Of a DNA stretch of 64,000 nt, positions 17,539 to 21,563 are shown piece by piece. The stretch lies in the NCBI RefSeq assembly GCF_000328525.1, contig NC_019964.1, positions 186,001-250,000 of the forward strand, written 5' to 3'. The notes under the pieces are model-generated. The model was not told the DNA's origin, ran no database searches, and saw nothing but the letters and a program-made list of their open reading frames with translations. The DNA comes from Halovivax ruber XH-70. Lineage in GTDB: Archaea; Halobacteriota; Halobacteria; Halobacteriales; Natrialbaceae. How positions within the stretch are numbered: the first letter of the stretch is position 1; each line of letters starts with the position of its first letter. The position numbers were made by a program, and so were the translations under genes.

Positions 17539-17614
17539 GCCAAGGTGGCAGAGTCCGGCCGAACGCAGCGGCCTGCAGAGCCGCCCATCGCCGGTTCAAA
17601 TCCGGCCCTTGGCT
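17539..17614 (+). tRNA. tRNA-Cys (anticodon GCA)
   Basis: The gene folds as a cloverleaf. The acceptor GCCAAGG pairs with CCTTGGC, the anticodon loop is CTGCAGA between GCGGC and GCCGC, and the T-arm is GCCGG-TTCAAAT-CCGGC. The discriminator is T and CCA is not encoded. A distal tRNA-Cys after 5S is common in haloarchaeal rRNA operons. Its last 22 nt recur three times in the next 340 nt. Confidence 0.97.
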
Positions 17615-17948
17615 TCTTGCGACGAACGGACGTGAGGAGTAGATGCAAAACGAGGTTTTGAACCACATCAGTCGCGCGCAACGAAGCGAGCACGTCTGAT
17701 CTCGGTTCAAATCCGGCCCTTGGCTTTCTGTGACGAACGGACGTGAGGAGCGAACGCCACACGGACGGTTTGGACCCTGGAAGTCGCAACCGCGAGCGGA
17801 GCGAGCGGTCCGTCTTCCTCCGGTTCAAATCCGGCCCGTGGCTTCTTGCGCCGTGAGCAAACTCGCGAGCGGCGCGAATCAGACGTGGTGTTGAACCAGG
17901 GAGTGGAGCGGAGCGGAACGACTGTGGTTCAAATCCGGCCCGTGACTA
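17593..17948 (+). repeat. Tandem array of tRNA-Cys 3'-end copies with hairpin units
   Basis: GGTTCAAATCCGGCCC of tRNA-Cys (17593) recurs at 17704, 17822 and 17926, spaced 111, 118 and 104 nt. The following acceptor part drifts with distance: CTTGGCT, CTTGGCT, CGTGGCT, CGTGACT. After copies 1 and 2 comes the block GACGAACGGACGTGAGGAG; after copy 3 comes the variant GTGAGCAAACTCGCGAGCGG. Each unit also has an inverted repeat just before the next copy: ATCAG/CTGAT (17667/17696), GGAAG/CTTCC (17779/17814), AACCA/TGGTT (17894/17925). The arms differ between units but pair within each. The spacing, inverted repeats and tRNA core distinguish this from CRISPR. No coding potential is seen. Confidence 0.85.
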
Positions 17949-17996
17949 TTCACGAACCACTGATCCAGGTGGGCTTGCACTCTCGCGTTGTCCGGG

Positions 17997-18698
17997 TCAG
18001 CTCGGCTCGGCCTCGATCGTGGTAATCACGCCGAGCATCGCGGTTGAGGCGTCGGTGACCGACAGCTCCGCCCGAGAGACGTGCTCGAGTGGGTCCTGAT
18101 TCCAGCGACAGCGGTGTTTTTCGAAGTGGGCGGCAGCCCGCCAGTCTTGCAGTCGTCCGAGCATTTCGACGCTGCTGCGACCGTGCTCTACGAGCAGCAC
18201 TCGCCCGTCGGGGGCACAGACGCGATTCATCTCCCGGAGTGCAGCGACTGGATCGGGAACGGTACACGTCGAGAGCGAGGAGATGACCGTGTCGAAACTG
18301 TCGTCTGGAAACGCGAGCGCCTCCGCATCCATCTCCGCTACCTCGTGGTCATCGTCGAACTGCTTCACGCGTTCGCGAGCCCGTCGAACCATCGCGGGGC
18401 TGACGTCGATTCCGACGTACTCGACCGTCTCCGGGAGGTATCGGACGTTCGTCCCCGTCCCGCAGGCGACGTCCAGCACGCGACCGTGGGCCGTCTCGAA
18501 GTGGCGGCGATACCGGCCCAGGAGCAGCCGATCTACCCACTCCATCCGGTCGAGCGCGTCGGCCTGCTCGTCGTAGGTCTCCCGGATCGCTGCGAGCGCC
18601 CCAGCGCGGTCCTGCCGGATGTCGGCCGCGTCTTCGTCGCCGGCCATCGCCGTACCGGCGTCTGACGTGGGTTCGGTGTCGGGGCCCGTTCCGTTCAT
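17997..18698 (-). CDS. Class I SAM-dependent methyltransferase
   Basis: A 233-residue methyltransferase of the UbiE/type-11 fold. Motif I is VLDVACGTGTNVRYL (about residues 73-87), the acidic residue after strand 2 is in VEYVGIDVSPAMV, and motif II/III regions are AEMDAEALAFPDDSFDTVISS and GRVLLVEHG. The N-terminal 35 residues are acidic and probably disordered. The C-terminal RCRWNQDPLEHVSRAEL recalls small-molecule or phospholipid-type methyltransferases, but no substrate can be named. It stands alone, convergent with the tRNA-Cys array, with its 3' end about 50 nt from the last tRNA-tail copy. Confidence 0.85.
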   Translation of the reverse strand: MNGTGPDTEPTSDAGTAMAGDEDAADIRQDRAGALAAIRETYDEQADALDRMEWVDRLLLGRYRRHFETAHGRVLDVACGTGTNVRYLPETVEYVGIDVSPAMVRRARERVKQFDDDHEVAEMDAEALAFPDDSFDTVISSLSTCTVPDPVAALREMNRVCAPDGRVLLVEHGRSSVEMLGRLQDWRAAAHFEKHRCRWNQDPLEHVSRAELSVTDASTAMLGVITTIEAEPS

Positions 18699-18888
18699 AT
18701 GCGAAATTCGGGTCGCTCCTCCATAGATTCAGTGCTGGCTACGGTGGCGGAGCCGTCCTCGCGGTGTTGCCGGGTCACCTCGGTTCTCTTTTGAACGGGC
18801 CGTTCGAGCGCTCACGGAGTCGCAATAATAAACCGGCCACCCCATGGCGGTGTTTCGTATAAGTTGTTTGGTACCACACCACTGCCGC

Positions 18889-20352
18889 ATGTTCGACGAA
18901 CGTGTCTGGTCGAGTGAGGGGGAAACGACGGAATCCGCCGAAACGGCCCTGAAAACGAAAACGATCGGTGACGTCGACCTGTCAGTTATTCAGAGGAGGC
19001 CGGTTGCCAAGTTCCTTCTCGCGTTTCTGGTTGGATTCGTCTTCTTCCTGGTTCCTGTCCCGTGGGACGGGCAGGTAACCGTCCCGTTCGACATCGTGGT
19101 CAGCTGGATCACGGAGTCGTTCCCGTCGGCAGCTGGCGTGTACGCCCTCGCGCTCATCATAGCGGGCGGGATCTTGACGACGCTCGCGGAGCTTGATAAA
19201 CGCGGTCTCGTATCCATGGGCGATGCGGTCGCCGACCGACTGGCACTCTCGTACTGGGAGACGTCGATCCCGTTTTGGTTCTTCCGCGTCGTGGGCGCCG
19301 CGCTCGCGCCGGTCCTGTTCCTCGATGTGGGGCCAGCCTGGCTCGTCGGACCGGCGACGGGTGGGCTCGTCTGGGGGACGCTCATTCTGAGCGTCGCCGT
19401 GATCATCCCGATCGGTGCGGTGTTCATCAATCTCTTCGTCGAACTCGGTGGGCTGGAGTTTGTCGGCACCCTCTCCCGCCCGATCATGCGGCCGCTGTTC
19501 AAGATTCCAGGCCGCGCGGCACTGGATAGCGTCGCATCTTGGGTCGGTTCCTACAGTGTCGGGCTCTACGTCACGCGAAACGTCTTCGACCGCGGTGAGT
19601 ACTCGAAGCGGGACGTGTTCGTCATCTGCACGTGCTTCGCGACGGTGTCGATCGGATTCGTCGGGGTCGTCGCCTCGACGCTCGACCTGCTCGATCTCTT
19701 TCCGGTCATCTTCCTCGCGTACCTCGTCTGTATCGCGATATCGGCGTTCATCCTCGTTCGAATCCCGCCGCTGAGTAACGTCCCCGACGCGTACATCGCT
19801 ACGCCGAACCCCGAGACGCCGTTCCACGGATCGCCGGGGGACTACGTCCGATTTGGCCTGTCCGAAGCGGTCGAGAAGGCTGAGGAAGGCGGTTCTATCG
19901 TCGGCGCGCTGGTTCGCGGGTTCGTCGACGGACTCAAACTGGCCGTATTGATCCTCGGCACGATCCTCTCGATCGGACTCGCCGCGGTCGTGATCGCCGA
20001 AAACACGCCCGTCTTCGACATTATCTCGACCCCTCTCGTGCCGATCATCGACCTCCTCGGAATTCCCGACGCCGACCTCGTCGCCCCGGCGACGATCATC
20101 GGCATCACCGAGATGTTCATTCCCGCGTTGCTGGTGACCGAGGCCGCCGCGAAGGCCCGGTTCTTCATTGCCGTTCTCTCGATCTCGCAGCTCATCTTCT
20201 TCTCGGCCGTCGGGCCGATGATGATGGACATGTTCAGCGACATCCCGATTCGCTTTCGCGACCTCGTGACGCTCTTCGTCATGCGAACGATCATTCTCGT
20301 CCCGCTCGTCGCGGCGATCACCCACCTCGTTGCGGCGCTCGGGTTGCTCTGA
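18889..20352 (+). CDS. YjiH-family membrane protein with nucleoside-recognition (Gate) domains
   Basis: A 487-residue polytopic membrane protein with about ten hydrophobic segments. The N-terminal region (VAKFLLAFLVGFVFFLVPVP) and the two Gate-like blocks (PIMRPLFKIPGRAALDSV, and LVAPATIIGITEMFIPALL) match YjiH/YtvI-type transporters. The family probably transports a small solute, but substrates are not established. A CGTATAAG TATA box at 18856 lies about 27-33 nt before ATG 18889, indicating a leaderless transcript and ruling out the longer frame from 18844. Neighbours give no operon context. Confidence 0.85.
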   Translation: MFDERVWSSEGETTESAETALKTKTIGDVDLSVIQRRPVAKFLLAFLVGFVFFLVPVPWDGQVTVPFDIVVSWITESFPSAAGVYALALIIAGGILTTLAELDKRGLVSMGDAVADRLALSYWETSIPFWFFRVVGAALAPVLFLDVGPAWLVGPATGGLVWGTLILSVAVIIPIGAVFINLFVELGGLEFVGTLSRPIMRPLFKIPGRAALDSVASWVGSYSVGLYVTRNVFDRGEYSKRDVFVICTCFATVSIGFVGVVASTLDLLDLFPVIFLAYLVCIAISAFILVRIPPLSNVPDAYIATPNPETPFHGSPGDYVRFGLSEAVEKAEEGGSIVGALVRGFVDGLKLAVLILGTILSIGLAAVVIAENTPVFDIISTPLVPIIDLLGIPDADLVAPATIIGITEMFIPALLVTEAAAKARFFIAVLSISQLIFFSAVGPMMMDMFSDIPIRFRDLVTLFVMRTIILVPLVAAITHLVAALGLL

Positions 20353-20501
20353 GTCGCTCCCCGATGTCGCGGCCGTATTGGGTCGTTTTCCGGACACTTT
20401 CGATTCTATATCGATAGCCAGCGGCTCATCCCCTTTTGGAACGGCCGCAAACCCAGTTCACCCAGTCACCGCAGCCACAGCGACGAGCGTCGAGCCGTCG
20501 G

Positions 20502-21068
20502 TCAATCGAGCGAATCGTCGCGTCGGTTGGTCCTCCGTGCGATCACTCGCGTTCGGATCGCGTCGAGTCCTGGCTGTCCGTGCCCGTGCCAGAGCACGAG
20601 GGCGATGGCCGCGAGGACGAACTCGAGCAGGAAGTACGGGTCGCCGAGCGACCCCGCGAGGAGGTCGGCGATCGTCGGCGCTCCTTCTTCGTACGGTTCG
20701 ACGGCCGTCACCGGCCACAGGAGCATGCCGACCGACGTCTCTCGCCAGAGCACGGGGACGATGTCCATAATCGGGTGAGAGAGCATTCCGAGAACGAACG
20801 CGAATCCGACCTCCCGACGGCCGACGTGCCGGGCGAGTAGCAGCGCTCCGATGGCCAGGGGGACGAGAAAGAGAAACGAGTGGCCGAGCGATCGTCCCGT
20901 CGGTAACATCCCCAGGTACCACGACAGTGGTTTGTCGAGCAGGTCCGGTACCTGACTCCCGACGAGCACGGCGACCACCGGCGCTGCGGCTGGTGGCTGG
21001 AGCGCCCGCCCCCGACGGGACAGTGTATAGCAGAGGTACGCGACGGCGGCGTGTCCGAGTGGCCACAT
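20502..21068 (-). CDS. Membrane-bound metal-dependent hydrolase-like protein (DUF457/YdjM)
   Basis: A 188-residue membrane protein starting MWPLGHAAVAYLCYTL, with the N-terminal GHA and an internal HSFLFLVP plus LSHPIMDIVP. These conserved histidines define the DUF457/YdjM group of inner-membrane putative metal-dependent hydrolases. Four to five membrane segments are visible. ATG 21068 is chosen because the longer frame adds a non-family N-terminus. The C-terminus (QPGLDAIRTRVIARRTNRRD) is basic and cytoplasmic-looking. The gene's promoter side abuts the distal end of the tRNA-Lys tail array. Biochemical role unknown. Confidence 0.8.
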   Translation of the reverse strand: MWPLGHAAVAYLCYTLSRRGRALQPPAAAPVVAVLVGSQVPDLLDKPLSWYLGMLPTGRSLGHSFLFLVPLAIGALLLARHVGRREVGFAFVLGMLSHPIMDIVPVLWRETSVGMLLWPVTAVEPYEEGAPTIADLLAGSLGDPYFLLEFVLAAIALVLWHGHGQPGLDAIRTRVIARRTNRRDDSLD

Positions 21069-21187
21069 TCTGTCTGGGCCGACGGGCGACGCGTACTTAA
21101 CCGACGTGACTCGGCTCACCAGCCGCCGCGGGTCAGCGACGCCAGATTCGATACACGTCGCTCGCGAGATTGCTCACGACGTGAAAA

Positions 21188-21489
21188 CGGGCCGGGCGCG
21201 ATTGTGAACAACGTCCAGAAATGCTCGCTTCGCTGCGCCTTTCTGGCCTCCTTCAAATCGCTCGTGTCGTTTTCACTGCTCACGTCCGTTCGCAGGAAAA
21301 CGGGCCGGGCGCGATTGTGAACTACGCCGAGACGGTCCTGCTCGCCTCGCTTCACTCACGGTTTCACCGTTCGTATCGCGGTTCTCACTTCGTTCCGAAC
21401 CGCGCTTCGCTCGGCTGTGCGGGCTGCGACTCGTCTCCTTCAAATCGCTTATGGTCGCTTCGCTCCTCGCGTTTCGCTCGGAGCAGAAG

Positions 21490-21512
<23 letters not shown>
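21188..21512 (-). repeat. Tandem array of tRNA-Lys 3'-end copies with hairpin units
   Basis: On the minus strand the tRNA-Lys tail (21512-21490) recurs at 21322-21301 and 21209-21188, steps of 189 and 113 nt. Both downstream copies read GTTCACAATCGCGCCCGG instead of GTTCAAATCGCGCCCGG. The block after copy 2 is TGCGAACGGACGTGAGCAG and after copy 3 is GTGAGCAATCTCGCGAGCGA, nearly identical to the two block variants of the tRNA-Cys array and in the same order. Flanking arms pair: GTTTTCCTGC (plus-strand 21292-21301) with 21269-21279, and CCAGAAA (21215-21221) with TTTCTGG (21240-21246). The unit next to the tRNA is longer, with extra hairpins. No protein is supported here. Confidence 0.85.

Positions 21513-21563
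<51 letters not shown>

Follow-up and report, generated by a model that had tools for sequence, protein, structure and literature searches.

Arrays of reassorting hairpin modules and tRNA-specific T-loop copies in the 3' flanks of haloarchaeal tRNA genes

At the tyrT locus of Escherichia coli, 178-bp repeats (rtT RNA) stand in tandem behind the tRNA, each with a copy of the tRNA 3' end. REP/BIME elements are palindromic units that alternate in orientation and have spacers of two kinds, and in integron arrays cassettes are gained, lost and reordered, attC sites act as folded single strands and the older, distal copies are the more decayed. In haloarchaea, the SMR-A elements of Haloquadratum walsbyi—the nearest known elements to the units described here—are non-coding, ~110 bp long, >95% identical to one another and bounded by palindromic ends; they are inserted without target duplication in palindromes (PATEs and IS605-type elements), and their mobiliser is unknown (PMC3119063). 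Haloarchaeal genomes also undergo precise deletions between short direct repeats, mostly <20 bp but up to 43 bp at tRNA duplications, and genome-wide deletion-coupled insertions, in which an unrelated sequence replaces another at one position (PMC3119063).

Here we describe arrays behind tRNA-Cys(GCA) and tRNA-Lys(TTT) in a 64,000-nt stretch of Halovivax DNA (hereafter, the window; Table 1). Each unit reads tail copy – H1 – inverted T-loop of its own tRNA – H2 – next tail copy, and H1 and H2 are two exchangeable modules. The tail copy comprises the 21 nt from T-arm G53 to the discriminator (i.e., T-loop to 3' end) and is directly followed by the T-rich start of H1, a hairpin with the cap C-GA-[AC or GC]-loop-[GT or GC]-GA-G. 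An inverted T-loop (e.g., GGGATTTGAAC) separates it from H2, a hairpin of the type (xxAG)TCGC..GC-GNA-GC..ACGT(CTxx). T-loop copies thus alternate between direct and inverted orientation along an array, the direct copy coming with the whole 21-nt tail. The bodies are ~100 nt long and gene-free in 289 units, and the arrays encode no protein.

Table 1. Features of the Cys and Lys arrays, numbered from the first letter of the window.
Feature	Position	Strand	Remarks
tRNA-Cys(GCA)	17539..17614	+	ARAGORN; first tail is the last 21 nt, 17594-17614
Cys unit 1 H1	17615..17653	+	CGAACGGACGTGAG type
Cys unit 1 inverted T-loop	17654..17664	+	GGTTTTGAACC
Cys unit 1 H2	17665..17704	+	ATCAGTCGC...ACGTCTGAT; covariance model R1 72.1 bits
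Cys tail copy 2	17705..17725	+	
Cys unit 2 H1	17726..17766	+	
Cys unit 2 inverted T-loop	17767..17776	+	GGTTTGGACC
Cys unit 2 H2	17777..17822	+	R1 63.6 bits
Cys tail copy 3	17823..17843	+	
Cys unit 3 H1	17844..17887	+	GAGCAAACTCGCGAGC type
Cys unit 3 inverted T-loop	17888..17897	+	GTGTTGAACC
Cys unit 3 H2	17898..17926	+	Short; R1 34.8 bits
Cys tail copy 4	17927..17947	+	Most decayed
tRNA-Lys(TTT)	21489..21563	-	ARAGORN; tail 21489-21510
Lys unit 1 H1	21449..21488	-	Third variant (CTCCGAGCGAAACGCGAGGAG)
Lys unit 1 inverted T-loop	21439..21449	-	AGCGATTTGAA (CGAT is Lys-specific)
Lys unit 1 H2	21323..21438	-	Long, extra nested hairpins
Lys tail copy 2	21301..21322	-	GTTCACAATC form, extra C in T-loop
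Lys unit 2 H1	21263..21300	-	
Lys unit 2 inverted T-loop	21252..21262	-	
Lys unit 2 H2	21210..21251	-	CCAGAAA...TTTCTGG; R1 69.4 bits
Lys tail copy 3	21188..21209	-	
Lys terminal H1, alone	21154..21187	-	GAGCAATCTCGCGAGC type

An initial annotation of this DNA had proposed a modular element with a tRNA-specific tail and a conserved body, which is right in outline and holds in a stronger form than proposed: there are two exchangeable modules, and the tail appears in alternating orientation. The tail copies it placed behind both tRNAs are present, as are its two blocks, ...CGAACGGACGTGAG(G/C)AG after Cys tails 1 and 2 and Lys tail 2, and GTGAGCAA(A/T)CTCGCGAGCG(G/A) after Cys tail 3 and Lys tail 3. 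These supposed body variants are two variants of H1, and a third, after Lys tail 1, had been overlooked. The GGTTTTGAA/GATTTGAA linker exists too and is the inverted copy of the T-loop of its own tRNA. The distal block is indeed the same in both arrays, but in the Lys array it is an H1 with no complete unit behind it. The claim that both arrays hold the same two units in the same order does not generalize, as the GAGCAA-type “distal” block is proximal at Gly-TCC, Leu-TAA, Val-CAC, Pro-TGG and Met-CAT; the agreement between the Cys and Lys arrays is fortuitous.

At the variable positions, the inverted T-loop has the letters of its own tRNA (CGATTTGAA at Lys, GGGAATTGAA at Gly-CCC, CGGAGATTTGAG at Arg-GCG) and reads ATTCGAA where that tRNA reads TTCGAAT. 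Across 284 units, it matches its own tRNA at 6.63 of 8 positions versus 5.76 for other tRNAs (p=2.5e-39), whereas the same segments taken in direct orientation show no own-tRNA specificity (p=0.5). This specificity fades past ~position 13 of the tail, and the argument rests on the T-loop part, the acceptor-end part of the inverted tail being weakly tRNA-specific. Two further features recur among the units. Many tail copies—both of those in the Lys array, and others in the Thr-CGT, Phe, Pro-TGG and Lys-CTT arrays—have an identical additional C in the T-loop (GTTCACAATC), a form common to units of different tRNAs with no counterpart in the tRNA genes themselves. Some H2 modules (Lys unit 1 in the window, and Ser-GGA, Pro-TGG, Leu-TAG, Asn and Ser-CGA) contain additional hairpins nested within them (GCGCGGTTCGGAACGAAGTGAGAACCGCG...GCGAACGGTGTAACCGTGAGC), as would result from the insertion of small palindromes into the hairpin tip.

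This anatomy recalls the tyrT repeats, in which each tandem repeat behind the tRNA likewise holds a copy of its 3' end; those repeats, however, are near-identical, confined to one locus, without an inverted T-loop and without exchange among tRNAs. It also recalls REP/BIME in its alternating direct and inverted palindromic repeats, but here the repeated unit is the tRNA's own T-loop or tail, and genomes with units do not all have a RAYT-type Y1 transposase.

In the 3,223,876-bp single-contig Halovivax genome that contains the window, 23 of the 42 tRNA genes are followed by one to three units (at least one tail copy). A BLAST search of the Cys array against this genome gave 16 matches, all downstream of tRNA genes (Cys, Ser, Gly, Glu, Val, Thr, Ile, Asp, Lys, Pro and Met). 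A covariance model of the inverted T–H2–T segment (R1; strong matches at ≥30 bits) found 32 strong matches, 30 of them within 500 nt downstream of a tRNA and on its strand, where chance would place ~0.3%. Words of the GAGCGAAGCGAGC kind are common in haloarchaeal intergenic DNA, and the initial annotation had itself raised the alternative of generic, low-complexity haloarchaeal sequence matching by chance; the placement of the R1 matches and the tRNA specificity of the inverted T-loops rule it out. The other two R1 matches are an antisense image of a unit and a match behind an unlisted tRNA-like sequence. That sequence (GCGGAAGGGTCGCTCAGCGG...GTTCAAATCCCACCCCTTCCG; C1 ~2792130-2792212) was missed by both ARAGORN and the Rfam tRNA model, yet it precedes a complete unit whose tail copy matches it. 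The lone candidate for a unit away from tRNAs (C1:2792237) sits behind it and was rejected as such.

Beyond this genome, R1 is present in 38 of 41 genomes of relatives and, in a phylum-wide sample, in 23 of 24 Halobacteriales, versus a single marginal match in one of ~124 genomes outside the order. Two near-complete Halobacteriales genomes (G033 and G135) have no R1 match. In a multi-species set of 332 distinct tRNA flanks, in which loci with units are enriched, 245 tail copies lie downstream versus three upstream, and copies with ≤3 mismatches occur in 156 downstream but two upstream flanks. Occurrence at any single tRNA is sporadic, e.g., a close tail copy at 8 of ~113 haloarchaeal tRNA-Cys loci. 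Downstream of tRNA-Leu(GAG), two loci (L057 and L329) have repeats of another type, in which the acceptor-end copy is short (GATGCAGGTGGAGTCCCTTGGGACTGCACCCACGCA); these are perhaps a second family. An Rfam scan of five loci matched only rRNA and tRNA, and in the open-access literature we found no description of the repeat family or of its unit shuffling. Like SMR-A, the units are haloarchaeal, small, non-coding and palindromic. Unlike SMR-A, their modules are conserved in structure yet diverse in sequence, strong matches stand only at tRNA tails rather than dispersed in PATE/IS605 palindromes, and the inverted T-loops are tRNA-specific, in arrays of two alternating cassettes.

The tail copy, a direct repeat of the 3' end, is also the classical att block of a tRNA gene, and mobile elements do integrate at these tRNAs, between tRNA and array (loci L287 and L288). 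The arrays might thus be remnants of integrative elements, with tail copies as att duplications left by T-loop-type integrases. We consider this very improbable: the elements seen beside arrays have longer identity blocks and ends without the H1/inverted-T/H2 anatomy, the unit bodies are mutually homologous as well as gene-free, and no integrase or other element gene lies between tail copies in the 289 units. The arrays had no match in phages, their exact word is absent from IMG/VR, and both plasmid matches lie beside plasmid tRNAs. One of the integrated elements (L288, 5138-13630) is ~8 kb long, encodes an integrase and a type I RM-like methylase, is integrated in tRNA-Gly(TCC) and splits this tRNA from its unit array. 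On a Haloarcula halophila plasmid (NZ_CP119561.1, 237157-243203), a 23-tRNA cluster adjoins a TROVE (Ro60-like) gene and holds one unit between tRNA-Asn and tRNA-Glu.

Sequence stretches around tRNAs were compared with those of Halovivax asiaticus JCM 14624, a draft assembly; array variation of this kind is also seen in two complete genomes, G001 and G004. Differences come in whole periods (Gly-CCC 118 nt, Lys-CTT 128 nt, Lys-TTT 113 nt, Ser-TGA 102 nt) between aligned flanks of 93-97% identity. The Cys array of H. asiaticus lacks the proximal unit and keeps units 2 and 3. At Lys-TTT the order x-y of the window's genome becomes y-x, unit 2 of the window being the proximal unit in H. asiaticus, and Val-CAC, Ser-TGA and Ser-CGA are likewise reversed, contrary to the conserved order first supposed. 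H. asiaticus Gly-CCC fuses the H1 of unit 1 to the H2 of unit 2, the second Gly-GCC unit is wholly different between the sister species, and at Lys-CTT the H2 is kept with an H1 of Ser-TGA type and a Lys inverted T-loop. In their precision, the losses between 21-nt repeats agree with the repeat-mediated deletions known from Haloquadratum, and the replacement of whole units is similar to the deletion-coupled insertions there, though these were described genome-wide and not as an array system (PMC3119063).

H1 and H2 reassort independently. In same-tRNA comparisons across five Halovivax genomes (module clusters at one 82% cut-off), H1 alone was kept 29 times, H2 alone 30 times and both 14 times, and H2 modules crossed amino-acid boundaries more often than H1 modules (14 of 26 versus 4 of 25; p=0.008). 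For instance, the H2 of Cys unit 2 recurs in the Arg(tcg) array of another Halovivax, and that of Lys unit 2 at tRNA-Phe in H. asiaticus. In unit pairs that share H2 across amino acids (0.93 identity), H1 is at background (0.45 versus 0.47) and the tail near it (0.55 versus 0.50), which places the breakpoints at both T-loops. Arg/Asp examples show an A/G change in the T-loop that matches the recipient on both sides of the moved H2. Distal tail copies are the more decayed (44 versus 9 arrays; p=4e-7), and ABA and AAB arrays exist, as expected under unequal exchange.

Such arrays might also be a passive by-product, without any element: replication would stall at tRNA genes, templates switch at the palindromic T-arm and unequal crossing-over do the rest. 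Fold-back template switching would yield alternating direct and inverted copies, and haloarchaeal deletions mediated by short repeats are documented (PMC3119063). Yet homologous H1 and H2 recur across tRNAs, genera and families and are essentially absent outside Halobacteriales in the phylum sample, and this account leaves the strand bias described below without explanation, so that we regard it as improbable. The sequence comparisons suggest instead that new units, with their H1 and H2, may come from a distant donor array and not from local sequence.

The units fold, and the fold has a strand. Among 145 distinct sequences, 95.0% of alignment cells are paired versus 81.7% after shuffling, a figure inflated by fitting the alignment to the model; double-change cells number 268 versus 79 in shuffles, and the covariation score of 0.413 compares with ≤0.069 in slid controls, every one of which collapses. 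On the tRNA-sense strand, G·T cells outnumber A·C cells by 133 to 9, and by 16:1 when only helices that the tRNA tail leaves free are counted, an excess that the fitted alignment may also raise somewhat. As G·T lies far above A·C, the folding strand is the tRNA-sense one, be it RNA or single-stranded DNA. At the H2 apex, C-GNA-G occupies 77 of 102 triloops, which are nearly always closed by C-G; elsewhere in the window, GNA makes up about 8-13% of triloops. Sequences of the C-GNA-G class form extraordinarily stable DNA minihairpins (PMC4686876), and these apices lean towards DNA as the folding strand, short of proof.

The same data bear on a reading in which the units are functional structured RNA of the tRNA 3' trailer (e.g., signals for termination, trailer decay or processing), whose sense-strand fold is kept by selection and whose modules are shared through ectopic gene conversion between similar trailers. 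The sense-strand G·T bias with its compensatory changes, the T-rich start behind each tail, the invariable position directly downstream on the tRNA-sense strand and the presence in nearly all Halobacteriales would all fit it. Against it, about half of the tRNAs in the same genome and most tRNA-Cys loci in other species do without units, sister species swap or lose them, distal copies decay, and the H2 apices are DNA-type GNA triloops rather than GNRA or UNCG tetraloops. We judge a trailer RNA rather unlikely, though it is the main rival of the reading that follows.

From the module boundaries, the reassortment and the sense-strand fold, which the comparisons establish, we read the arrays as transposase-free, recombination-active strings of non-coding hairpin cassettes specific to haloarchaeal tRNA 3' flanks, and give this reading about an even chance. 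The T-loop copies would be the sites of exchange and H2 the mobile piece, its basal stem formed by the inverted-T/T duplex and the whole probably swapped as a folded single strand; a recombination activity, either the host's or a resident one, would mobilise it in trans. Whole units could in addition be lost or duplicated between direct tail copies via short-repeat-mediated deletion (PMC3119063), and the arrays need not serve the host. Several points temper this cassette reading, among them the outcome of the enzyme searches described below. Moved H2 modules are flanked by recipient-type T-loops on both sides, which a simple T-loop crossover would not give, and both the strand bias and the persistence across the order would suit an RNA function equally well.

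A Y1/HUH transposase is not needed, as PF01797 has no match in six unit-rich genomes (G003, G004, G011, G028, G172 and G177), and a RAYT-like mobiliser was rejected on the same absence. The window's genome has two PF00589 matches, at C1:1410172 and C1:869814; the Cys and Lys arrays lie at C1:203-207 kb, a long way from either match, and no integrase adjoins the arrays. H. asiaticus has one significant tyrosine-recombinase match, with a same-length counterpart in the window's genome, near C1:1410172-1410726, which is the best significant match there; it looks chromosomal and would rank first among candidates should a tyrosine recombinase take part.

More tentatively, at somewhat less than even chance, these would form a new archaeal cassette system in which T-loops are both landing and exchange sites for folded, single-stranded hairpin cassettes, with ends rewritten for each tRNA and combinatorial shuffling from one tRNA gene to another. 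With the same reserve, such a system could be called integron-like behaviour without an integron. As in integrons, units are gained or lost and reordered between relatives, and distal copies are the more decayed. The breakpoints lie at the arms of the covarying sense-strand hairpin, which may act as a folded single-strand site. Unlike integrons, the arrays have no integrase gene and no ORFs, exchange half-units (H2 alone) and use tRNA T-loops as sites.

These arrays make up a repeat family of order-wide occurrence; its units are fitted to the tRNA that they follow, and within a single genus they reassort among tRNA genes. They offer a natural assay for hairpin-based recombination in archaea, may account for the high variability of archaeal tRNA 3' flanks and could lead to the mobiliser of small haloarchaeal repeats; if the units are RNA instead, they would represent a large, undescribed class of tRNA-trailer structure.
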